A stretch of DNA of 28,583 nt from a virus: the IMG/VR virus record IMGVR_UViG_3300035160_000015, positions 1 through 28,583 of that record, one strand, 5' to 3'. Shown one piece after another: positions 12,430 through 28,193 of the stretch (the stretch's first letter is position 1; every line of letters starts with the position of its first letter). The translations under genes and the position numbers were made by a program. The notes under the pieces were generated by a model. The model ran no database searches, was not told the origin of the DNA, and saw only the letters and a program-made list of their open reading frames with translations.

Positions 12430-12626
12430 TGGAAACGAAAGATGTTGTATACGGTTTTCAAGAAGTCAAGTTAATATTTTTCTTAAGGTCTCGTAAAATA
12501 CCAATGGGCGACATTAAGAAACTACTAAAAGATATTGAACGGATTAGAACGGATTATTTTGAAAGGAGAGAAAATGCACGAAATAGCAAGAAACACGCTG
12601 CGACAGATCCAGAAGGAAAGTCCTAA
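12429..12626 (+). CDS. Small hypothetical protein, overlaps next gene
   Basis: A 65-residue frame starting at the ATG that overlaps the stop of the preceding microprotein (TAATG). It has an amphipathic, charged sequence (KLIFFLRSRKIPMGDIKKLL then KDIERIRTDYFERREN) with a probable C-terminal helix. It overlaps the next gene by 53 bp and contains that gene's GAAAGGAG site. Coding status is supported by coupling and reasonable composition up to about residue 50; the overlapping tail may be a by-product. No family recognised. Confidence 0.5.
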   Translation: METKDVVYGFQEVKLIFFLRSRKIPMGDIKKLLKDIERIRTDYFERRENARNSKKHAATDPEGKS

Positions 12627-13335
12627 TATTTTGACTATATTAGGCGTTTCTGGGTTGATCGCGACTGTACTACTAGCAATAGAAGCCACACCTAAGGCAT
12701 ATTCTGAGCTGTCTAAAGAGGAAAACGACAGACTAACGGAGTCTGATACCTTCTATGTCAAATTAAACCCGTTAGAGGTCGTTAAACTGGTATATCCTTA
12801 TTATGTTCCTACAGCCTTATCTGGACTCTTAACTATAGGCTGTATCATAGGTGCAAATCGTGTTTCTGCAAGACGAACCGCCGCGTTAGCGGCTTTATAT
12901 TCTATTGCGGAGACAAGTGTGAGGGATTATCAGGAAAAAATTGTGGAGATAGTTGGCAAGAATAAGGCTTCCAAAATTGAAGAGGCCATTGTTCAGAAGA
13001 AATTAGACAATGATCCTATAGAAGGCAAGACAGTAATAATAACTGGAGATGGGGATCATTTGATATATGATGAGTTCTCAGGTCGATATTTCAAGTCGAC
13101 TATAGAGAAGATTAAGCAATCAGTTAATGAGTTTAACCGCGAACTATTAATAGATATGTACAAACCGATAAACGACTTGTATGATCTATGGGAATTAGAA
13201 CCTATAGAAAGTGGTAGAAACATGGGTTGGGATGTCGATAACGGTCTTTTAGAGATCGTGTATACTACTAAGTTAGCCACAAATAATGAACCTTGTGTAG
13301 TTTTGTCATATTCTGTTCAGCCAAAGTATCTTTAA
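12574..13335 (+). CDS. DUF6353-like membrane protein (copy A)
   Basis: A 253-residue protein; ATG at 12574 with GAAAGGAG is preferred over a TTG at 12535. Two transmembrane segments are evident, at residues about 19-37 (ILTILGVSGLIATVLLAIE) and 72-93 (YVPTALSGLLTIGCIIGAN). Then comes NRVSARRTAALAALYSIAE and a helical linker rich in lysine and glutamate. The C-terminal soluble domain ends with NDLYDLWELEP and CVVLSYSVQP. The same order is seen in the protein at 16087-16992, so the two are paralogues of what I take to be the phage DUF6353 family. Molecular role is unknown. It ends just before promoter P4. Confidence 0.75.
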   Translation: MHEIARNTLRQIQKESPNILTILGVSGLIATVLLAIEATPKAYSELSKEENDRLTESDTFYVKLNPLEVVKLVYPYYVPTALSGLLTIGCIIGANRVSARRTAALAALYSIAETSVRDYQEKIVEIVGKNKASKIEEAIVQKKLDNDPIEGKTVIITGDGDHLIYDEFSGRYFKSTIEKIKQSVNEFNRELLIDMYKPINDLYDLWELEPIESGRNMGWDVDNGLLEIVYTTKLATNNEPCVVLSYSVQPKYL

Positions 13336-15487: not shown

Positions 15488-16075
15488 ATGACACGAATTA
15501 ACAGAGAGGAGTATCCCAGTAACTCCAAATCAAGGGGTACTCCTCAAAAGAAAAAAGCAGTTGCGCAGGGCAGAGTAATCAAGAAAAGAGAATCTATTCT
15601 TGGAAGGATATTTGGTGAAAATGCCCGAAGTGTTGGTAATTATGTGCTCTGGGATGTTATTATTCCAGCGGCTAAGAGCACAATTTCCGATATAATTTCA
15701 AATGGGATCGAAATGCTATTGTATGGGGAACCAGATCGACGCCATATTCGAAGAGATCGCGGAAGATCATATGTACGCTATAATAGTATATATGATGATA
15801 AGCGTCGTACAAGAACTTCGAGACAAAGGGCTAAATCTAAATTCGATGACATAGTATTCGAGACACATGGGGAAGCCGATGAAGTTTTGAGCCAATTAGT
15901 AGAGTGTATTGAAAACTATGAAGTCGCAACTGTGGCAGACTTCTACGATTTGGCAGGAATAAATAGTGATTGGGCAGATAACAAATACGGTTGGTATAAT
16001 CTTGCCCCATCGAAAGTTGAACGTGTTCGTGAGGGATATGTATTAGTACTCCCTCGTACAGAAGTGTTAGATTGA
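15488..16075 (+). CDS. Conserved basic phage protein
   Basis: A 195-residue protein with TAGGAG upstream. The first 40 residues are lysine/arginine-rich (GTPQKKKAVAQGRVIKKRES) and another basic block lies at about 80-118 (PDRRHIRRDRGR, KRRTRTSRQRAKS). The C-terminal domain contains FDDIVFETHGEADEVLSQL then VATVADFYDLAGINSDWADN, and a YGWYNL segment ending in VREGYVLVLPR. I recognise this C-terminal pattern from hypothetical proteins of Gram-positive phages and related elements, without a known function. Basic N-terminal and central regions would fit nucleic-acid or envelope association. Its stop overlaps the ribosome binding site of the DUF6353-like gene. Confidence 0.7.
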   Translation: MTRINREEYPSNSKSRGTPQKKKAVAQGRVIKKRESILGRIFGENARSVGNYVLWDVIIPAAKSTISDIISNGIEMLLYGEPDRRHIRRDRGRSYVRYNSIYDDKRRTRTSRQRAKSKFDDIVFETHGEADEVLSQLVECIENYEVATVADFYDLAGINSDWADNKYGWYNLAPSKVERVREGYVLVLPRTEVLD

Positions 16076-16086
16076 AAGGAGAAACG

Positions 16087-16992
16087 ATGAAAATCAAAGG
16101 TATTAAATTAGCCAGGGCAAAACTCCTAGCCCAGAAGCATTCACCAGAGTTATTAATGGCTGGTGGTATTGTCTGTGCTGTAGGTGCTGTTGCCTGGGCA
16201 GCCAAAGCGTCTTGGGCAGATGGTCCAAGGGTTTGGAAAAATTATAAATTTACAACGGAACAATTATCGCGGGCTCAAAACTGGAGTCCAACTGAAGAAG
16301 AGGAGAAAGATTTCGCACAATTCCAAACTATGGCTGCGGTTGAGATGGTCATGGGTATGGCAAAGGTGTATGGTCCAGCAGTAGTTTTGTTGGCTATGAG
16401 CATTGGAATGTTTGCTGGTTCGAACCGGATCCTCAATAAGCGATATGTCGGAGTACTTGGCGCATATAAATTGGTTGACGAAGGTTTCAAGAAATATCGT
16501 CAGCGCGTTATTGACGAGCTTGGTCCAGAGACGGATCACTATTTCCGATATTTGAAGAAGTCTGACAAAGATTTGTCGATTGTAGAGACGAAAGGCAAGA
16601 AAGAATTTAAGCCTCATGAGGAACAAGCAGATCTCCCAGGTGAAATTGAAGATCTAGAAGTTGGATCCATATATGCGCGTTGGTTCGATAATCACAGCGT
16701 GCAATGGCGAAACGATCAATCCCTAAATCATTATTTTTTGAGTGCCCAGCAGAACTTCATGAATGATATGCTTCATCTAAATGGACATTTATTCTTGAAT
16801 GAAGTTTATGATGTACTGGGCATTCCAAGATCTAAAGAAGGTGCCCTTGTTGGATGGGTTGAAGGGCATGGTGATAGCTTCGTTGACTTTGGGATATTTG
16901 ATCCTGTGAATAAGAAGTTTATTAATCGATATACAAACGAAGGCATTTTGTTGGATTTCAACGTTGATGGGATTATTTGGGATCTTATCTGA
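16087..16992 (+). CDS. DUF6353-like membrane protein (copy B)
   Basis: A 301-residue protein; ATG at 16087 is 5 bases after GAAAGGAG. Membrane segments lie at about 22-40 (SPELLMAGGIVCAVGAVAW) and 95-115 (YGPAVVLLAMSIGMFAGSN), followed by NRILNKRYVGVLGAYKLVD. The C-terminal domain holds FLNEVYDVLGIPRSKEGALV, the GWVEGHGDSFVDFGIF core and ends ILLDFNVDGIIWDLI. That is the form I associate with the phage DUF6353 family. Copy A (12574) shares the same architecture but is shorter and more divergent. After its TGA the same frame stays open for 41 codons. Confidence 0.8.
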   Translation: MKIKGIKLARAKLLAQKHSPELLMAGGIVCAVGAVAWAAKASWADGPRVWKNYKFTTEQLSRAQNWSPTEEEEKDFAQFQTMAAVEMVMGMAKVYGPAVVLLAMSIGMFAGSNRILNKRYVGVLGAYKLVDEGFKKYRQRVIDELGPETDHYFRYLKKSDKDLSIVETKGKKEFKPHEEQADLPGEIEDLEVGSIYARWFDNHSVQWRNDQSLNHYFLSAQQNFMNDMLHLNGHLFLNEVYDVLGIPRSKEGALVGWVEGHGDSFVDFGIFDPVNKKFINRYTNEGILLDFNVDGIIWDLI

Positions 16993-18314: not shown

Positions 18315-18585
18315 ATCAAATGTACGACAATATGTAGTAATCCCGGCTGGCGAAACTGTAGAAACAATGGCCGGAAAGGAAGTAGAAACCATCGAACTTC
18401 CTGCAGGTTATCGTAATGATGCCAATATGGCGAACTGGTATTACGCTAACAAAAAGGGTGGAGATCCGAATTCAACATGCGTAGCGTTTGAGGTATTTGC
18501 AGGTGTAAAACCTCCCGAACCAACTCCTCATAACCTTGAAGCACAGGATATTTATGTCGAAGAAGGGTGGAATTTAGACGAGTAA
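18307..18585 (+). CDS. Small hypothetical protein
   Basis: A 92-residue acidic protein overlapping the previous stop by 8 bp; AAAGGAG lies about 10 bases upstream. The sequence includes QYVVIPAGETVETMAGKEVE, NMANWYYANKKGGD and an acidic C-terminus (EAQDIYVEEGWNLDE). No membrane segment or known motif. It is the last gene before the iteron array, so its operon ends at or in the putative origin. Function unknown. Confidence 0.65.
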   Translation: MTESNVRQYVVIPAGETVETMAGKEVETIELPAGYRNDANMANWYYANKKGGDPNSTCVAFEVFAGVKPPEPTPHNLEAQDIYVEEGWNLDE

Positions 18586-18846
18586 AAGTGTAACATTTGT
18601 GACACTTTTGCTTTGGTGTTTTTCTCTCTGTAGCTAAGTAGGGTGAAAAGTGTGACAAAAAAGTGTAACATTGTGACACTTTTGAAACGAAAGTGTAACA
18701 GGCGATTTTGCCTTCTAAGGGTGTTTTTCGTAAACCTAAGCGATTTTGCGAGATTTTGTGACACTTTTGCACTTTTTCACCCTACCTTAGTTATAGAAAA
18801 AAATCATATATTTTAAAAGTTTTAAAATTTAAGCAAAAGTGTAACA
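18584..18846 (+). repeat. Iteron array (eight copies of AAAAGTGTAACA)
   Basis: Eight copies of a 12-bp motif, consensus AAAAGTGT(A/G)ACA, occur in both orientations. Forward copies: 18584-18595, 18646-18657, 18659-18670, 18689-18700, 18835-18846. Reverse copies (TGTGACACTTTT): 18598-18609, 18672-18683, 18757-18768. A longer arm, CTAAGTAGGGTGAAAAGTG (18634-18652), is repeated in reverse at 18770-18790 with two single-base insertions. GCGATTTTGC occurs twice (18702 and 18740). Such arrays are typical binding sites for a replication initiator or a cooperative regulator. Confidence 0.85.
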
Positions 18847-18864
18847 CGTTGAAAGGAGACCTGG
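18586..18864. other. Putative origin of replication
   Basis: This 279-bp gene-free interval combines the iteron array, a large inverted repeat and an AT-rich tract at 18791-18840 (runs such as AAAAAAATCATATATTTTAAAA) that could serve as an unwinding element. It lies directly before the helicase-primase-polymerase gene, the common place for a phage origin. The alternative is an operator controlling the replication gene. No TATAAT promoter of the P1-P6 type is found here. Origin function is inferred from layout. Confidence 0.65.
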
Positions 18865-21800
18865 ATGGATTTTTACCAAATCAAGCAAAGGTCAACCAGG
18901 AATGGTACCATAGAAATCTATCCTGACTTTAAGGTAACAAGGTCTAAGGATTTGATGGTTAGGGGGAAATCGTTTTATGCTATATGGGATGCTGAAAAGG
19001 GTCTTTGGTCTACGGACGAGTATGACGTTCAGAGATTAGTTGATAATGAGCTAATGGAAGAGCGTGCAAAAATCTTGAGAAGGACAGATGGTGTAATTCA
19101 TGTCAAGTTTATGAGCGATTTCTCAACAAATGCCTGGAGTAAGTACAGAACATATCTTGCCCATATTTCAGACAATGCGCATCAATTAGATGAGAATCTT
19201 ACTTTTCTAAATACACCTGTCAAAAAGACGGACTATGTTAGTCGAAGATTACCATATTCTCTAGAACCTGGAGAAACTGAGGCTTACGATAAGCTGATGA
19301 AAACTATATATTTGCCAGAGCAACGCCGAAAGCTCGAATGGGCTATAGGATCAATAGTTGCTGGTGAAGGTAAAGATATTCAGAAGTTTATTGTCCTTTA
19401 TGGTGAAGGTGGAAGTGGTAAGAGTACATTCTTAAACATATTGCAAAAACTTTTCGTTGGATATTACACCACATTTGAAGCTAAAGCATTGACGTCAAAC
19501 GCTAATGTTTTCTCTACAGAAGTGTTCCGTAATAATCCGCTTGTAGCTATACAACACGATGGAGATCTATCAAGGATTGAGGATAACACTAAGTTGAATT
19601 CGATTGTATCTCATGAAGAGATGACTATGAATGAGAAATATAAACCTAGCTATACGGCTAGAGTTAATTGTTTCTTATTTATGGCAACGAACAAACCTGT
19701 GAGAATCAGCGACGCTAAATCAGGAATTATTCGCAGATTGATAGATGTAACTCCTAGTGGTAAGAAAATTCCAATAAATCAATATCATAGCTTAATGTCA
19801 AGAATTGACTTTGAGTTAGGAGCAATAGCTGACAAGTGTCTTAAAATCTACAGGGAAATGGGGAAGAACTATTATTCTACCTATAGACCATTAAGTATGA
19901 TATTTCAAACAGACATATTCTTTAACTTTGTCGAAACAAACTACTATACGTTTTTACAACAAGATGGTGTTTCGCTTACTCAAGCTTGGACTATGTATAA
20001 AGAATTCTGCGAGGAATCTCTTATTGATTTTAAGTTACCACGTTATAAGTTTCGTGATGAGCTTAAGAATTACTTTAGAGAGTTTCTTCCTGTAACTAGG
20101 ATAGATAATAAACAGATAAGGAGTTATTATTCGGGTTTTATCGTAGATAAATTTAAAGATAAAGCCGAACAACAAGAAGAACCGCCTCCTGGCTGGTTGT
20201 CCTTAGATGATACTAAATCTATATTTGATGAGGTTGCTGCTGGGTACAAAGCTCAGTATGCCACAGAAAAATATGAAACTCCAGCTTCTCCATGGGACAA
20301 AGTATCTACAACCTTGAGTGATTTAGATACTAGTAAGTTGCATTATGTGCAAGTTCCTCTTAATCATATTGTAATAGACTTTGATATTCGAGACGATAAA
20401 GGAAAGAAATCAGCAGAACTGAATATTGAAGAAGCCAGTAAATGGCCTCCAACTTATGCTGAATTTAGCAAATCTCAGTGTGGAATACATTTACATTACA
20501 TATATGATGGTGATCCAGAAAGACTTAGTGCGCTATATGCGGAAGGAATAGAGGTTAAGGTTTTAAAGGGAAACTCAGCATTGCGAAGAAAACTTAGCAA
20601 ATGTAATAGTAACCCCATAGCAACTATTAAAACCGGTTTACCTTTGAAAGAAAAGAAGATGATTAACTTTGAGGTTGTTCAGTCTGAAAAAGGTATTAGG
20701 GATTTGATTATACGTAATCTAAATAAAGAAATACATCCAGGCACAAAACCTAGTGTTGACTTTATTTATAAGATTCTAGATGATGCCTATAATTCAGGAA
20801 AACCATATGACGTTAGAGATTTGCGACCCAGAGTTCTTAGCTTCGCAGCAAATAGTACGCACCAATCTCAGTACTGTGTTAAGCTTGTCAGTAAGATGAA
20901 GTTTAATTCTGAGGAAACAAGCGAAGATATAGGAGTCTATCAAGATGAACGAATTGCGTTCTTTGACGTTGAGGTTTTTCCTAATCTCTTCATCGTAAAC
21001 TGGAAGTACGAAGGCGAAGAGAATGAATGTGTTCACATGATTAATCCAACACCACAAGATGTGGAAGGATTACTCAAGCTTAAGTTAGTAGGCTTTAATA
21101 ACCGTCGATATGATAATCATATATTGTACGCTCGATATTTGGGGTATGATAATGATATGATTTATGATGTAAGTAGTCGGATTATTGATGGTTATAAGCG
21201 AGCCTTATTTACTGAGGCGTATAATTTGTCATATGCTGACGTCTACGACTTCAGCACTAAGAAACAAAGTTTGAAAAAGTTTCAATTGGAATTGGGGATT
21301 CATCACCAGGAATTAGGTATACCTTTTGATGAACCAATTGCTGAAGAACTTTGGCCTTTAGCTATAGAGTATTGCGATAATGATGTTATATCTACAGAAG
21401 CTGTTTTTCATGCTCGTAAACAGGATTTTATAGCTAGACAAATTTTGGCAGATCTAAGTGGGTTGACTGTAAATCATTCAACCCAAGCACACACAGCAAA
21501 GATTATATTTGGGAACGATAGAAATCCTCAAGAACAGTTTATCTATACTGATCTTAGTGAACAGTTTCCTGGCTATACATTCGATGCTGGTAAAAGTAGT
21601 TACCGTGGAGAAGATCCCGGTGAAGGAGGTTACGTTTATGCAGAGCCTGGGTGTTATGAAAAAGTTGCGTTACTTGATATTGCAAGCATGCATCCGAGTT
21701 CTATTGTTCTTCTTAAAATGTTCGGCCCATATACTGATATTTATGAAGAACTTATCAAAGCAAGATTGGATATTAAGCATGGAGATGTCGACAGTGCCGG

Positions 21801-22620
21801 AAAAAGATTCGGAGGGATATTTGAAGAACATCTTAAGAAAGGCGACAGTGAACTACGAAGTAGTCGCGAAGACTTAGCATATGCTCTTAAAATCGTAATC
21901 AATATTGTATACGGATTAACCTCTGCTAGTTTCTCTAATAAGTTTAGAGATTCTAGGAATGTTGATAATATTGTAGCAAAACGTGGTGCTTTATTTATGA
22001 TAGATTTAAAGCATGCAGTACAAGAGCAGGGCTATCAAGTCGCTCACATTAAGACTGATAGTATAAAAATACCAAAAGCTACAAAGAAGATTATAAATTT
22101 TGTAATCAAGTTTGGTAAGGAGTATGGTTATACTTTCGAACATGAGGCAACTTATGATCGGTTTTGTTTAGTGAACGACGCTGTATATATTGCGAGGAAA
22201 TCTACTGGAGACTGGGTGGCTGTAGGAAAAGAGTTTCAGCATCCATATGTATTTAAGACTTTATTTAGTAAAGAACCAATAGAGTTTGAAGACATGTGCG
22301 AAGTTAAAACTGTTACTACAGCTTTATATCTTGACTTCAACGAAGGGATGGACGAAGATGTACATAATTACCACTTTGTTGGACGAGCTGGTTCTTTCGT
22401 CCCGGTTGTCTCTGGTAGTGGTGGAGGTATTTTGCTACGAGAAAAGGACGGGAAATATTACGCTGCTTCGGGTACTAAGGGTTGGCGCTGGATGGAATCC
22501 AGCCTTGTACAAGAATTAGGAAAGGAGAATGATATTGATATAGAATATTTTAGAAAGTTAGTAGATAGTGCGGTAGATCATATTTCGGAGTACGTTGATT
22601 TTGAAACATTTGTAAATTGA
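18865..22620 (+). CDS. Fused SF3 helicase / primase-like / 3'-5' exonuclease / family B DNA polymerase
   Basis: A 1251-residue replication protein with GAAAGGAG upstream. Residues 1-170 resemble the region preceding D5-type helicases. Residues 180-188 are the Walker A GEGGSGKST (K186); HDGD at 231-234 and ATN at 274-276 are the SF3 Walker B and motif C positions. Residues about 505-570 fit an archaeo-eukaryotic primase core: D505-F-D507, then GIHLHY (H542, H544), then IEVKV (E563). Exonuclease motifs are D701-V-E703, NNRRYDN (D750) and YCDND (Y836, D840). Polymerase motif A is DIASMHPSS (D938), motif B K1009-x3-N1013-x2-YG1017, and motif C KTDS (D1065). FQHPYVFKTLF lies in the thumb region. 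All catalytic positions are kept. The primase call is the least certain part. Confidence 0.85.
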   Translation: MDFYQIKQRSTRNGTIEIYPDFKVTRSKDLMVRGKSFYAIWDAEKGLWSTDEYDVQRLVDNELMEERAKILRRTDGVIHVKFMSDFSTNAWSKYRTYLAHISDNAHQLDENLTFLNTPVKKTDYVSRRLPYSLEPGETEAYDKLMKTIYLPEQRRKLEWAIGSIVAGEGKDIQKFIVLYGEGGSGKSTFLNILQKLFVGYYTTFEAKALTSNANVFSTEVFRNNPLVAIQHDGDLSRIEDNTKLNSIVSHEEMTMNEKYKPSYTARVNCFLFMATNKPVRISDAKSGIIRRLIDVTPSGKKIPINQYHSLMSRIDFELGAIADKCLKIYREMGKNYYSTYRPLSMIFQTDIFFNFVETNYYTFLQQDGVSLTQAWTMYKEFCEESLIDFKLPRYKFRDELKNYFREFLPVTRIDNKQIRSYYSGFIVDKFKDKAEQQEEPPPGWLSLDDTKSIFDEVAAGYKAQYATEKYETPASPWDKVSTTLSDLDTSKLHYVQVPLNHIVIDFDIRDDKGKKSAELNIEEASKWPPTYAEFSKSQCGIHLHYIYDGDPERLSALYAEGIEVKVLKGNSALRRKLSKCNSNPIATIKTGLPLKEKKMINFEVVQSEKGIRDLIIRNLNKEIHPGTKPSVDFIYKILDDAYNSGKPYDVRDLRPRVLSFAANSTHQSQYCVKLVSKMKFNSEETSEDIGVYQDERIAFFDVEVFPNLFIVNWKYEGEENECVHMINPTPQDVEGLLKLKLVGFNNRRYDNHILYARYLGYDNDMIYDVSSRIIDGYKRALFTEAYNLSYADVYDFSTKKQSLKKFQLELGIHHQELGIPFDEPIAEELWPLAIEYCDNDVISTEAVFHARKQDFIARQILADLSGLTVNHSTQAHTAKIIFGNDRNPQEQFIYTDLSEQFPGYTFDAGKSSYRGEDPGEGGYVYAEPGCYEKVALLDIASMHPSSIVLLKMFGPYTDIYEELIKARLDIKHGDVDSAGKRFGGIFEEHLKKGDSELRSSREDLAYALKIVINIVYGLTSASFSNKFRDSRNVDNIVAKRGALFMIDLKHAVQEQGYQVAHIKTDSIKIPKATKKIINFVIKFGKEYGYTFEHEATYDRFCLVNDAVYIARKSTGDWVAVGKEFQHPYVFKTLFSKEPIEFEDMCEVKTVTTALYLDFNEGMDEDVHNYHFVGRAGSFVPVVSGSGGGILLREKDGKYYAASGTKGWRWMESSLVQELGKENDIDIEYFRKLVDSAVDHISEYVDFETFVN

Positions 22621-22966: not shown

Positions 22967-23479
22967 ATGCCTGAAGTAAAAAGTCTTATAGAAATTGAAA
23001 ATGCTCGTATAGGTTTTCGTAATTTTTCAGGAAAGCAAGGAAGATTTAATCCAGCAGGGAGTAGAAATTTCTGTGTTTTCTTGGATGACGATCTTGCGAA
23101 AACTCTTGCGAAAGACGGTTGGAATATAAAATATTTAGATCCACTAGAAGCAGAAGATCCACCTCAACCATATTTACAGGTTGCTGTTGCATATACAAAT
23201 TATCCCCCAAAGATTATGTTAATTAAAAACAGAAGTGATGGGGGAGACACTAGAACCTATCTAGATGAAGGTTCAGTAAATGTTTTAGATTATGCTGATA
23301 TTGAAACTGTGGATTTAATTATTCGTCCTTACAACTGGAACGTTAATGATAAGAAAGGTGTTAAGGCGTATATTAAAAGTATGTATGTTGTTATTCGAAC
23401 TGATAGGTTCGAAGAAAAATATACCAACGTTCCTGATGCTGCTCTTGATAATTTAGAAGAGCCGCCTTATGACGAGTAA
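22967..23479 (+). CDS. Probable single-strand DNA-binding protein
   Basis: A 170-residue protein starting one base after the preceding stop. The form IEIENARIGFRNFSGKQGRF, then NPAGSRNFCVFLDDDLA, DGWNIKYLDP, and later IIRPYNWNVNDKKGVKAYIK matches phage proteins annotated as OB-fold single-strand DNA-binding proteins in genomes with the same replication genes. The C-terminus is acidic (DALDNLEEPPYDE), as in SSBs that recruit partner proteins through an acidic tail. Location between polymerase and helicase supports a role in coating template strands. The helicase start overlaps its last codons (11 bp). Confidence 0.75.
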   Translation: MPEVKSLIEIENARIGFRNFSGKQGRFNPAGSRNFCVFLDDDLAKTLAKDGWNIKYLDPLEAEDPPQPYLQVAVAYTNYPPKIMLIKNRSDGGDTRTYLDEGSVNVLDYADIETVDLIIRPYNWNVNDKKGVKAYIKSMYVVIRTDRFEEKYTNVPDAALDNLEEPPYDE

Positions 23480-24611
23480 GCTTTTTGATTATCAGAAAAA
23501 AGCTGTAGGCCAGTTGAAGACCGGCTGCATCTTATGTGGTGGAGTCGGTTCTGGTAAATCGTTAACGGCTTTGGCTTATGTTAAATCTTCACATCCTCCA
23601 TGGAGCAAGGTATATGTAATTACTACAGCAAAGAAAAGAGATACTGGAGATTGGGAAAGAGAAGCAAAATCTTTAGGTTTTTTAGAGCTTGTTGTAGACT
23701 CCTGGAATAACATTAAAAAGTATATAGATGTAACTGATTCGTTTGTTATATTCGACGAGCAGAGAGTAGTTGGATCTGGCGCCTGGGTAAAATCGTTTTT
23801 GAAGATAACATCTAAGAATGATTGGATATTGTTAACTGCTACTCCAGGTGACACCTGGATGGATTATGTTCCTGTCTTCATTGCGAATGGTTTCTATAAA
23901 AATAGAAGTCAATTTCTCAGGCGCCATGTCGTTTTTAGTCCTTTTACTAAATTTCCAAAAATTAGTAGATATGTTGATACTGATAGATTGGAAAAGATAA
24001 AATCTGACATTCTTATTATGATGGATTATAAGAAACCTGCAATAGCTATATATGATAATATTTATGCAGATTTTGACAAAGATAAATTTAGTATAGTACA
24101 GAAGAAACGATGGAATCCATATACAAACAAACCTATAAGAGACATAACAGAGTATTTTCTTACTATGAGAAAAGTAGTCAACTCTGATCCTAGTAGATTT
24201 GCTAAAATAGAAATGCTAGTAGAGAAGCATAGTAAGCTTATAGTCTTTTATAATTTCAACTATGAGCTGGAACTGTTGCGAGAGTTGAAATCGTTTGTTA
24301 CAGTTGCAGAATACAATGGTCATAAACATGAAGCAATTCCAGAAACAGATCGATGGGTATATTTAGTTCAGTATCTTTCTGGTAGTGAAGGCTGGAACTG
24401 TATTGAAACTAATGCTGTGGCTTTCTACTCTTTAAATTATTCTTATCGAATCATGACTCAAGCAGCTGGTCGTATAGATAGATTGAATACGCCGTTTGCA
24501 AAATTGTTTTACTATAAAATAATGTCAGCTTCATGGATAGATAAGGAAATTAATAAAGTTCTTTTAACTAAAAAGAATTTTAATCAGTCGCGCTATAAAC
24601 ACATGCTATAA
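23469..24611 (+). CDS. SF2 DNA helicase (SNF2/DEAD-like)
   Basis: A 380-residue protein, compact for the family. Motif Q region LFDYQKKAV (residues 5-13), Walker A GGVGSGKS (24-31, K30), motif II DEQR (96-99) in place of DEAH, motif III TATP (123-126), and C-terminal motif VI QAAGRIDR (331-338) are all present. The YLSGSEGWNC segment forms motif V. This is the minimal two-RecA-fold core common among phage helicases that act in replication or recombination. The 3' end contains promoter P6, whose TATAAT overlaps the TAA stop (24609-24611). Confidence 0.88.
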   Translation: MTSKLFDYQKKAVGQLKTGCILCGGVGSGKSLTALAYVKSSHPPWSKVYVITTAKKRDTGDWEREAKSLGFLELVVDSWNNIKKYIDVTDSFVIFDEQRVVGSGAWVKSFLKITSKNDWILLTATPGDTWMDYVPVFIANGFYKNRSQFLRRHVVFSPFTKFPKISRYVDTDRLEKIKSDILIMMDYKKPAIAIYDNIYADFDKDKFSIVQKKRWNPYTNKPIRDITEYFLTMRKVVNSDPSRFAKIEMLVEKHSKLIVFYNFNYELELLRELKSFVTVAEYNGHKHEAIPETDRWVYLVQYLSGSEGWNCIETNAVAFYSLNYSYRIMTQAAGRIDRLNTPFAKLFYYKIMSASWIDKEINKVLLTKKNFNQSRYKHML

Positions 24612-24653: not shown

Positions 24654-24668
24654 TTGAAAGGAGAGAAA

Positions 24669-24965
24669 ATGTTACTAGAAAGCCAATTTCAATCCAAATT
24701 GATTAAGAAAATTAAAAATCTATTTCCAGATTGTATAATTATAAAAACCGATCCTGGATATATTCAAGGATTTCCAGATTTAATAATTCTTAACGGAAGA
24801 AAATGGGCAGCTCTTGAAGTTAAGAGAAGTAAAAATGCTTATAAAGGTCCGAATCAAGTTCATTGGATAGTTGAATGTGATCTTAGAGCTTATGGAAGTT
24901 TTGTATATCCTGAGAATGAAGAAGAGGTTTTAGATGAATTGGCAGAAGCATTACAACCTTATTAA
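24669..24965 (+). CDS. VRR-NUC-type PD-(D/E)xK nuclease
   Basis: A 98-residue single-domain nuclease; ATG at 24669 follows GAAAGGAG. The core is E4, then KTDPGYIQGFPDLIIL with catalytic D37, then WAALEVKRS with E50 and K52, and PNQ near residue 62. These match the VRR-NUC family, which includes small phage nucleases acting on branched DNA or flaps. The C-terminus YPENEEEVLDELAEAL is also typical. It likely resolves replication or recombination intermediates. It overlaps the next nuclease gene by 32 bp. Confidence 0.82.
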   Translation: MLLESQFQSKLIKKIKNLFPDCIIIKTDPGYIQGFPDLIILNGRKWAALEVKRSKNAYKGPNQVHWIVECDLRAYGSFVYPENEEEVLDELAEALQPY

Positions 24966-25509
24966 TCAACACGCTTTTCTAAGTCCTTCAAAAGCCCATT
25001 GGATAAATTATACAGAGGAAAAATTAGTTGATGTATATTTAAAAAATCTAGCTGTGAAAAGAGGAACGCTTTTACATGCTTTAGCGTCTAATTGTATTAG
25101 GCTGGGAGTTAAACTTCCTTCTAATAAAAAATCGATAAATCAATTTGTAAATGATGCTATCGGTTTTAGAATGATGACTGAAGTGGTTTTGTTTTATTCT
25201 ATGAATGCTTTTGGAACAGCAGATGCTATTTCTTTTAGAAACAACTTTCTAAGAATTCATGATCTTAAAACTGGGACAATTCATGTGAAGATGACTCAGT
25301 TAGAAATATATGCTGCTTTATTTTGTTTGGAATATGAAGTTAAACCAACAACAATAGATATAGAATTAAGAGTATATCAATCTAGTAATATTGTTATTCA
25401 TAATCCAGAAGCAGCTCATATTAAAATGATCATGGAGAAGATTATATTTTTCGATAAGCGAATAGAAGAACTTAAAAAAGAGGAGGAGAATCCATGGCAA
25501 CCTTTTTAA
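24934..25509 (+). CDS. RecB/Cas4-like exonuclease
   Basis: A 191-residue nuclease. Motifs in order: KRGTLLHALA with H48, FGTADAISF with D97, LRIHDLKTG with D110 and K112, and QLEIYAALF with Q122 and Y126. This H - D - DxK - QxxxY series defines the RecB/Cas4-type PD-(D/E)xK exonucleases. The cysteine set that binds the Fe-S cluster in true Cas4 is not evident. There is no CRISPR array or other cas gene nearby, so a role in replication or recombination is more likely. Ends within the start of the RNA polymerase-like gene (16-bp overlap). Confidence 0.78.
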   Translation: MNWQKHYNLINQHAFLSPSKAHWINYTEEKLVDVYLKNLAVKRGTLLHALASNCIRLGVKLPSNKKSINQFVNDAIGFRMMTEVVLFYSMNAFGTADAISFRNNFLRIHDLKTGTIHVKMTQLEIYAALFCLEYEVKPTTIDIELRVYQSSNIVIHNPEAAHIKMIMEKIIFFDKRIEELKKEEENPWQPF

Positions 25510-28193
25510 AGCATTACGGGATTCTTCGCCGTTCAGGAAGATATCCTTGGGGATCTGGTAAAGACCCATATCAACGTAGAGGAGATTTTCTATCTCTAGT
25601 TGCTGATATGAGAAAAGAAGGTTTTACAGATGCAGAGATAGCTAAAGGCTTTGATATGACTACAAAGCAATTTAGAGAACGGCACTCAATTGAAAAGAAT
25701 CGTCAACGTGCTGCAGATGCTGCGTTTGCTATGAGGCTTAAAGAAAAAGGTTGGTCAGATACAGCTATTGGAGAACGGATGGGAAGGAATGAATCCTCTA
25801 TTCGTTCTCTTTTAGATCCACATCTTTTGGAGAAGACATTAGTTATAGAAAATACAGCTAATGTTCTTCGTGATGCTGTAGAAACTCAAGGTCCTATTGA
25901 TATAGGTAAAGGTGTAGAAACTCATTTAGGAATTACTAGAACTAAGATGGATACATCAGTACGAGTGTTAATGGACCAAGGATACAAAGTTTACTATTTA
26001 CAAGAACTGCAGCCCGGTACTGGTAAATATACAAGCATAAAAGTACTTGCTCCACCTGGTATGGAATATGCAGATGTATATAGAAATCGTGCAGATATAG
26101 GTGTTCCGTGGAAACATTATTCTGAAGATGGTGGACATACTTATACTTCTGTAGTCTTTCCTATGTCTGTTGATGGAAAGCGTATAATGATTCGTTACGG
26201 TGATGAAGGTGGATCAGCTAAAGATGGTGTTATAGAACTTAGAGAAGGTGTAGCAGATATTTCTTTAGGTGATAATCGTTATGCTCAAGTTCGAATAGGT
26301 GTTAACGATACTCATTATATGAAAGGAATGGCTGTTTATGGAAAAGATATGCCTCCTGGTGTTGATATAATATATAATACGAAAAAAGCTTCTGGAACTG
26401 ATCCTTTTGACGTTTATAAACCAATGAAAATTGATAAAAGAACAGGAGAGATAGATCAGGAAAATCCATTTACTTCAGCTATTCGTCAAACGTATTATGT
26501 TGATGCTAACGGCAAAAAACACCTGTCTGCTATAAATATGGTTGGTGTAAAAGAAGGCGCAGGAGAAGAAGGCTCTTGGGGAGAGTGGAGTAGAAATCTA
26601 TCATCCCAGGTACTTTCAAAACAAACCCCCGCCCTTGCTAAAAAGCAATTAGGATTGGCATATAAGATCAAAGAAGAAGAATTTGACGAAATAATGAAAC
26701 TTACGAATCCTAGTGTTAGAAAAGTTTTATTACAGTCATTTGCTGATGATGCAGATGCTGCAGCAGTTCATTTGAAGGCTGCTGCTTTACCTCGTCAAAA
26801 TAATAAAGTTTTACTTCCCCTAACATCTATTAAAGAAAACGAAGTCTATGCTCCAGGTTATAATAATGGAGAAGAATTAGTTTTGATAAGGCACCCTCAC
26901 GGGGGAACCTTTGAGATACCCGTAGTAAAAGTTAATAATAGAGTTAGAGAAGGTGTAAGAGTAATAGGTAATCAAGCTCAAGATGCTATAGGAATTCATC
27001 CCAATGTGGCAAAGCGTTTATCAGGTGCAGACTTTGATGGAGATACTGTTTTAGCGATTCCTACAAAAAATCAAAGACTTAAAATTTCTGGACCTTTAAA
27101 AGGTGTTGCAGATTTTGATCCAATTACTTCATATCCTAAATTTCCAGGTATGAAAGTAATGAAAAACAAAGATCAAAAAATGGGTGATATTTCTAATCTT
27201 ATTACAGACATGACTATTAAGGGTGCTAGTCATGATGAGATTGCTCGTGCTGTAAGACATTCAATGGTAGTAATTGATGCAGAAAAGCATGAGTTAAATT
27301 ATCTTCAATCGTATAAAGATAATGGTATTAGTAGTTTAAAAGAAAAGTATCAAGGCGGTCCTAGAGGTGGAGCATCAACAATAATTTCTAGAGCTAAATC
27401 TCCTGTTCGTGTAGATCATAGAGTTGAGGGTGCTTATGTAAAAGACCCTAAAACAGGAAAGACGAGAAAGCTGTATATAGATCCTGACACAGGGGCCAAG
27501 CTCTATACTAAGACTGGTGAGACTTACATTAATAAAGCAGGTAAGCTAGTTAAAAGAATGACCAAGTCTACACGTATAGCAGAAGAAGCTGATGCTTTTG
27601 CATTATCATCAGGTACAGTAATGGAAGGCATCTATGCTAAGCATGCTAATTCTTTAAAGGGTTTAGCTAATAGAGCAAGAAAGACTATGATAGAAACTAA
27701 AGCTATACCATGGTCTAGCTCTGCTAGAAGAACCTATGCTAAAGAAGTAGAGTCTCTTGCTAATAAGGTACGGGCTGTCTATAGAAACAAACCACTTGAA
27801 AGAAAAGCCATACTGTTAGCTAATAAGCTGGTAGCACAGAGAAAGAAAGCACGCCCCGATATGGATGCAGATGAACTACGTACAGTTAAGTTCCGGTCTT
27901 TAGAAGAAGCACGTGCTAGAGTTGGTGCTAAGAGAGTACAGGTGGAGATAACGGATAGGGAGTGGCACGCCATACAGGCCGGGGCTATAAGCCCCACCGC
28001 CTTAGAAAAGATACTTTTAAATACCGATACCGCGGCTCTCAAACAAAGAGCAATGCCCCGTACTCAGAGATTAATGTCCTCTCCTAAGATAGTAAGAGCT
28101 CAGACTATGTTGAGAACTGGCTATACTAGGAAAGAAGTAGCTGATGCACTAGGAGTATCACTATCTACATTAGACCTAGCTCTTAAGGAATAG
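25494..28193 (+). CDS. Putative single-chain DPBB RNA polymerase (YonO/RdRp-like) with HTH segments
   Basis: An 899-residue protein with GGAGGAG upstream. The decisive feature is GADFDGDTVLAIP at residues about 511-523, with D513, D515 and D517 in DxDxD spacing. It is preceded by IGIHPNVAKRLS, which parallels the bacterial beta-prime segment before NADFDGD. An upstream segment HYMKGMAVYGKDMPPG (K277, K284) may be the lysine-bearing barrel. Helix-turn-helix-like segments lie at about 35-60 (EGFTDAEIAKGFDMTTKQF), 80-105 (KGWSDTAIGERMGRNESSI) and the C-terminus (TRKEVADALGVSLSTLDLAL). The length is close to that of SPbeta YonO (about 900 residues). It may transcribe middle or late phage genes; it could alternatively be a primase- or processing-type enzyme. 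Confidence 0.68.
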   Translation: MATFLKHYGILRRSGRYPWGSGKDPYQRRGDFLSLVADMRKEGFTDAEIAKGFDMTTKQFRERHSIEKNRQRAADAAFAMRLKEKGWSDTAIGERMGRNESSIRSLLDPHLLEKTLVIENTANVLRDAVETQGPIDIGKGVETHLGITRTKMDTSVRVLMDQGYKVYYLQELQPGTGKYTSIKVLAPPGMEYADVYRNRADIGVPWKHYSEDGGHTYTSVVFPMSVDGKRIMIRYGDEGGSAKDGVIELREGVADISLGDNRYAQVRIGVNDTHYMKGMAVYGKDMPPGVDIIYNTKKASGTDPFDVYKPMKIDKRTGEIDQENPFTSAIRQTYYVDANGKKHLSAINMVGVKEGAGEEGSWGEWSRNLSSQVLSKQTPALAKKQLGLAYKIKEEEFDEIMKLTNPSVRKVLLQSFADDADAAAVHLKAAALPRQNNKVLLPLTSIKENEVYAPGYNNGEELVLIRHPHGGTFEIPVVKVNNRVREGVRVIGNQAQDAIGIHPNVAKRLSGADFDGDTVLAIPTKNQRLKISGPLKGVADFDPITSYPKFPGMKVMKNKDQKMGDISNLITDMTIKGASHDEIARAVRHSMVVIDAEKHELNYLQSYKDNGISSLKEKYQGGPRGGASTIISRAKSPVRVDHRVEGAYVKDPKTGKTRKLYIDPDTGAKLYTKTGETYINKAGKLVKRMTKSTRIAEEADAFALSSGTVMEGIYAKHANSLKGLANRARKTMIETKAIPWSSSARRTYAKEVESLANKVRAVYRNKPLERKAILLANKLVAQRKKARPDMDADELRTVKFRSLEEARARVGAKRVQVEITDREWHAIQAGAISPTALEKILLNTDTAALKQRAMPRTQRLMSSPKIVRAQTMLRTGYTRKEVADALGVSLSTLDLALKE

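Follow-up and report, generated by a model that had tools for sequence, protein, structure and literature searches.

Background

The HelPrimPolB group, in which a family B DNA polymerase (PolB) carries an SF3 helicase and a PrimPol in its N-terminal part, was named in 2020 by Kazlauskas et al., who credited their own 2016 paper, placed the group in the EpsilonN-like PolB clade and described deviations in polymerase motif C as one of its traits (PMC7544198). A protein of this type, GP55 of Lactococcus phage 1706 (YP_001828703), was purified by Zhang et al. in 2025 (NAR gkaf542; PMC12205980), who also found over 1000 homologues of it. Polymerase, 3'-5' exonuclease, helicase and RNA-primer synthesis activities were shown for GP55. 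According to the same study, the protein is mainly dimeric by SEC-MALS, its helicase runs on UTP or dTTP only, and its primase and polymerase cooperate in trans. The helical domain that follows the archaeo-eukaryotic primase (AEP) domain is essential; priming depends on D509 as well as on Y655 and F667 (PMC12205980). Another described system, NrS-1 PrimPol (PDB 6a9w, 7rr3), both primes and synthesises DNA with a single catalytic centre, and its helix-bundle domain is a different one (PMC12205980).

In this work, we analyse a 28,583-nucleotide stretch of DNA (hereafter, the window). This IMG/VR fragment comes from a tailed phage and encodes a replicase of the same kind. This class of proteins matters in that it places the core replisome activities on one chain, a point that is already published. 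The four-in-one architecture is thus not new, the group having been named in 2020 and GP55 assayed in 2025. To this the window contributes a clean orthologue, encoded by an uncultivated phage and lying next to a compact repeat array that recurs in relatives. Since the replicase system itself has been described and assayed, the interest of the locus is modest, and it rests on this array and on the natural splits of the gene in relatives.

The replicase gene and its relatives

18865..22620, + strand: replicase gene, HelPrimPolB / GP55-type (one ORF, 1251 aa; phrog_4210; 39% identity to GP55)

The ORF begins with the ATG at 18865, preceded by a AAAGGAGA ribosome-binding site at 18852-18859, and runs without any internal stop to a stop codon that ends at 22620. 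A preliminary description of this DNA had proposed a single gene here, encoding a helicase, a primase-like domain, an exonuclease and a family B polymerase in one chain. Its reading as a one-chain replicase with four activities is supported: the frame is uninterrupted, all the quoted motifs are present, the corresponding domains or folds were found, and the orthologue GP55 has been shown to have the activities. In particular, profile scans and structure matches show SF3 helicase, AEP and PolB following one another along a single chain. In the PHROG profile scan, phrog_4210 covers aa 1-1250 (E=0), and the phage collection that we searched contains 252 phage records with homologues over at least 80% of the length, many of which are named "DNA primase/polymerase" or "DNA polymerase".

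The window replicase is 39% identical to GP55 from end to end (1304 aligned columns) and has the same domain order, that is, SF3 helicase, PriS-like AEP, helical domain (aHD), and PolB with exonuclease. All seven mutation-tested residues of GP55 are identical in the window replicase: K189, D509, Y655, F667, D712, E714 and D949 of GP55 correspond to K186, D507, Y648, F660, D701, E703 and D938, respectively. The two systems differ in that the sequences have diverged, phage 1706 has no AAAAGTGTNACA array (see below) upstream of GP55, and the activities were shown on GP55 only. We are nearly certain that the window replicase is an orthologue of GP55, a multifunctional replicase of the HelPrimPolB group of tailed phages, and that it most likely works in the same way. 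Compared by domain content and motif C, it shows no difference from the HelPrimPolB group, with which it shares the N-terminal SF3 helicase and PrimPol and an atypical KTDS motif C.

Closer in sequence are the actinophage "DNA primase/polymerase" proteins of Gordonia phages Petito and Avazak and Rhodococcus phage ReqiPepy6 (57-59% full-length identity), although the genomes of these phages are longer and have extra genes between the members of the module. Among the closest relatives of the replicase is also L176 (71% in the primase region), a 10986-base contig titled as a Candidatus Bathyarchaeum MAG; this is possibly a phage contig that was mis-binned.

Domain architecture

The following regions were delimited in the protein:

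19321..20175, + strand: SF3 helicase region (aa 153-437; DUF5906, PHROGs, PDB 7ola)
20209..20652, + strand: predicted AEP (PriS-like) catalytic domain (aa 449-596; AlphaFold2 model, Foldseek, residue invariance)
20659..20916, + strand: alpha-helical domain, the aHD of GP55 (aa 599-684; four helices in the model)
20947..21504, + strand: DnaQ-like 3'-5' exonuclease domain (aa 695-880; D701, E703, D750, Y836, D840)
21577..22617, + strand: family B polymerase catalytic region (aa 905-1251; motifs A-C)

To evaluate the conservation of catalytic residues, we used a 162-row alignment consisting of the window replicase and its non-redundant relatives. The residues checked are invariant in this alignment except for three in the helicase region, namely S187 in Walker A (159/162) and D232 and D234 in Walker B (159/162 and 160/162, respectively). 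The earlier statement that all catalytic residues are kept goes slightly too far for polymerase motif C, which reads KTDS.

The helicase region contains every SF3 hallmark considered: Walker A (GEGGSGKST, with K186), Walker B (HDGD, with D232/D234), the sensor asparagine N276 and the arginine finger R290. Profile scans matched DUF5906 at aa 178-291 (E 2.3e-14) and phage DNA primase/helicase PHROGs (down to E 9e-24), and the DNA primase of PDB 7ola matched aa 153-406 (E 2e-5).

The primase assignment was the least obvious from sequence. Single-sequence scans of the AEP region gave weak matches to known primases, and a profile search of the central region against PDB sequences returned nothing useful, so that the region was resolved only by PHROG profiles and folds. 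Among 69 relatives of aa 425-700, 44 touched Pfam Prim-Pol (best E 0.007), and several PHROG DNA-primase families were matched by 47 to 66 of them (best E 1.6e-6). An AlphaFold2 model of aa 425-700, built from 69 sequences, had a pLDDT of 87, and its top Foldseek match was NrS-1 PrimPol (E 1.4e-5, prob 1.00). The two superpose with a Z of 9.9 (VIA; 3.5 A over 140 residues); lower-ranked matches include pRN1 ORF904, cyanophage S-2L PrimPol and LigD polymerase domains, with human primase among the lower-scoring rows. Over the whole length, the TM-score against NrS-1 PrimPol is low, at 0.35; the probable reason is that NrS-1 has a different helical domain, the fold of the AEP catalytic domain being alike.

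The AEP superfamily is defined by motifs I (hhhDhD/E), II (sxH) and III (hD/E) (PMC5862659). All three are found in the window replicase, as D505/D507 in IVIDFD (502-507), H542/H544 in GIHLH (540-544) and E563 in IE (562-563). These residues as well as R574 and R575 are invariant in the 162 rows, a count that is biased because about half of the relatives in it were found by AEP-derived patterns. The AEP motifs are likewise conserved in a first alignment, most of which consisted of 80 loci retrieved with the whole protein. The model thus indicates that aa 449-596 is an archaeo-eukaryotic primase catalytic fold. The preliminary description had suggested that residues 450-620 be examined by structure prediction and Foldseek, and had named the lack of a primase fold there as evidence against it; given the PrimPol fold match and the invariant motifs, this was not what was found. 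In the aHD that follows, Y648 and F660 map to the two helical-domain residues required by GP55 for priming.

An AlphaFold2 model of the C-terminal part (aa 685-1251; pLDDT 92, pTM 0.85) finds family B polymerases as its top matches in the PDB (Foldseek E to 2e-16; VIA Z to 14.5); E. coli Pol II matches aa 919-1067 (E 8e-6). Together with this fold, the protein has ExoI-III and polymerase motifs A (D938), B (K1009-N1013-Y1016-G1017) and C (K1063-T-D-S), and all the exonuclease and polymerase residues checked are invariant in the alignment. Motif C is atypical: most PolBs have DTDS, and where these have the first Asp the window replicase has K1063, which is itself invariant across the 162 rows. 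Priming by a terminal protein was considered and rejected, as RNA/DNA-primed polymerases head the list of fold matches and the protein also contains an AEP primase.

Genome neighbourhood

To the left of the replicase gene lie tail genes (tape measure, Dit and minor tail). To the right are four further members of the replication module:

22967..23479, + strand: ssDNA-binding / strand-annealing protein (Phage_ssDNA_bind, E 1.8e-60; phrog_4787)
23469..24611, + strand: SF2-type helicase (phrog_62, E 1.6e-51)
24654..24965, + strand: small endonuclease (phrog_93, E 9e-11)
24934..25509, + strand: exonuclease (phrog_3953, E 1.7e-75)

The annealing protein-to-exonuclease part is kept in Lactococcus phages 1706 and P162; phage 1706 resembles the window in its downstream genes for strand-annealing protein, helicase, endonuclease and exonuclease. 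Gordonia phage Avazak has the same downstream order with extra genes in between. In Streptomyces phage RosaAsantewaa, the annotated order of helicase, endonuclease, exonuclease and HTH-protein is kept, and the gene at the place matching the 24654-24965 endonuclease is annotated as VRR-Nuc.

The next protein (25494-28193) has the PHROGs label "RNA-dependent RNA polymerase", HTH regions at both ends and a DFDGD motif, which we take to be that of two-barrel RNA polymerases. Its counterpart in Avazak likewise lies near the end of the replication/recombination module. Two proteins of the window (12535-13335 and 16072-16992) belong to phrog_2152, a family of unknown function, one of them being encoded just upstream of the replication module. 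No Rfam family was found in the window.

The preliminary description also held that the window contains no separate primase or DnaB-like helicase. Nothing found here speaks against this, but with its 28.6 kb the window is a fragment, and it does contain a separate helicase, of SF2 type. In 10 records of relatives, all 10 of which carry the replicase, there was no match to DnaB_C or DNAG_N.

The upstream repeat array

18584..18846, no strand: AAAAGTGTNACA array just before the replicase gene (8 sites, in both orientations; may serve as origin or operator)
18790..18834, no strand: AT-rich stretch in the array region, before the last repeat

When both strands of the window were searched with at most one mismatch allowed, AAAAGTGTNACA was found 8 times, always within the 263 bp of 18584-18846, whereas 0.97 matches would be expected in the whole window. 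The repeats that the preliminary description called a neighbouring iteron origin are therefore real, but "iteron" is a loose label, because the sites occur in both orientations and are irregularly spaced.

To examine how widely the array occurs, we defined its presence as at least three AAAAGTGTNACA sites in the 500 bp before the gene, where about 0.03 sites are expected per relative. By this definition, an array is present in 35 of the 167 non-redundant relatives, a number that includes the window, while a control stretch inside the gene contained no sites and few were found elsewhere. Presence is scattered on the tree of relatives (15 changes). The nearest relatives L001 and L176 have drifted GTGACAC-type sites upstream; in others of the nearest relatives no repeat sites were seen by eye, and none of the Gordonia/Rhodococcus records among the IMG/VR loci that we examined showed the array. 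From this scattered presence, and from the absence in phage 1706 and other relatives, we conclude that the array is a genuine and recurring feature, but one that is not tied to this enzyme. The array at first seemed strongly associated with the nuclease and RNA-polymerase-like genes downstream (21/21 versus 15-17/73), but this association disappeared on the tree (0-2 of 8 independent pairs) and was dropped.

What the array does can be read in several ways. A serious possibility, to which we give somewhat less than an even chance, is that it is the operator or promoter region of the replication module, used for autoregulation or by a phage regulator, and not an origin. The sites are inverted 12-mers, as for a dimeric repressor, and they stand just before the gene that opens the module; however, a simple operator would hardly be expected to have as many as eight sites over 263 bp, and no sigma-70-type promoter-like site was found in the array region, which is weak evidence. 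It is doubtful, by our estimate, that the array is a replication origin recognised by the four-in-one enzyme or by a phage partner. It is nevertheless a concrete candidate for the place where such enzymes start, with the AT-rich stretch as a possible unwinding element judging from its base composition, and if it were the origin, a few hundred base pairs and one protein would make an almost complete minimal replicon. Improbable, finally, is the stronger proposal of a self-contained initiator and replisome, in which the replicase itself binds the array as the origin-binding initiator and starts replication there. The density of sites directly upstream, their recurrence at the same place in relatives and the adjacent AT-rich stretch would all suit such an initiator, but most relatives as well as phage 1706 lack the array despite having the same enzyme, profile scans of the replicase found no known DNA-binding domain, and an operator would look alike.

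In the literature examined, no replication origin is described for the HelPrimPolB group, and neither the AAAAGTGTNACA array nor the natural gene splits (see below) were found described for these replicases. A text search of the literature for AAAAGTGTNACA gave no phage or replication-origin paper among the matches listed.

Proposed mode of replication

By analogy with GP55, the window replicase would combine helicase, primase, polymerase and exonuclease activities and would act as a dimer. The AEP and the following helical domain would make short RNA primers on a single-stranded template, and the C-terminal family B polymerase would extend these with DNA while its exonuclease proofreads. The N-terminal SF3 helicase would open the duplex ahead and give strand displacement, probably with UTP or dTTP; the ATP-dependent unwinding that the preliminary description had put forward for assay is probably wrong, because GP55 used these two nucleotides only. 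Note that with an identity of only 39%, the NTP preference and the primer start site may differ from those of GP55. The upstream repeat array, or DNA close to it, may be where replication starts.

It is highly improbable that the protein is instead a fusion of helicase and polymerase around a degenerate AEP-like spacer that does not prime, the primers being supplied by host DnaG or by transcription, e.g., from the RNA-polymerase-like protein at 25494-28193: the central region is only weakly similar in sequence to known primases and a two-barrel RNA polymerase-like gene lies within the same module, but the AEP catalytic residues are all invariant, the fold matches PrimPol, and the orthologue GP55 primes by means of three residues that are all conserved here.

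Natural splits of the gene in gut-phage relatives

In eight relatives (L108, L140, L141, L150, L151, L153, L198 and L214), the replicase is split, with the N-terminal ORF ending near residue 900. The split point falls between the exonuclease and polymerase motif A, so that a helicase-primase-exonuclease ORF is followed by a polymerase ORF. Similar splits occur in T4-like PolBs and in one archaeal PolB. The split regions are 7437-8000 in L140, 7386-8157 in L141, 7371-7647 in L153 and 11371-12525 in L214. HNH-type ORFs, read by eye, lie in the gaps of L140 and L214, and the gap of L141 contains a tRNA; a search of the split relatives for catalogued introns found none, and two tRNAs were seen there. 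In L153, the second ORF has its own AAAGGAGG ribosome-binding site. At least four changes on the tree of relatives are needed to explain the splits. These natural splits near residue 900 in gut phages suggest that the polymerase portion is also able to function on a chain of its own. A further relative, L211, has its break between motifs A and B, and there the frames overlap; this looks like a frameshift and was not counted as a fission.
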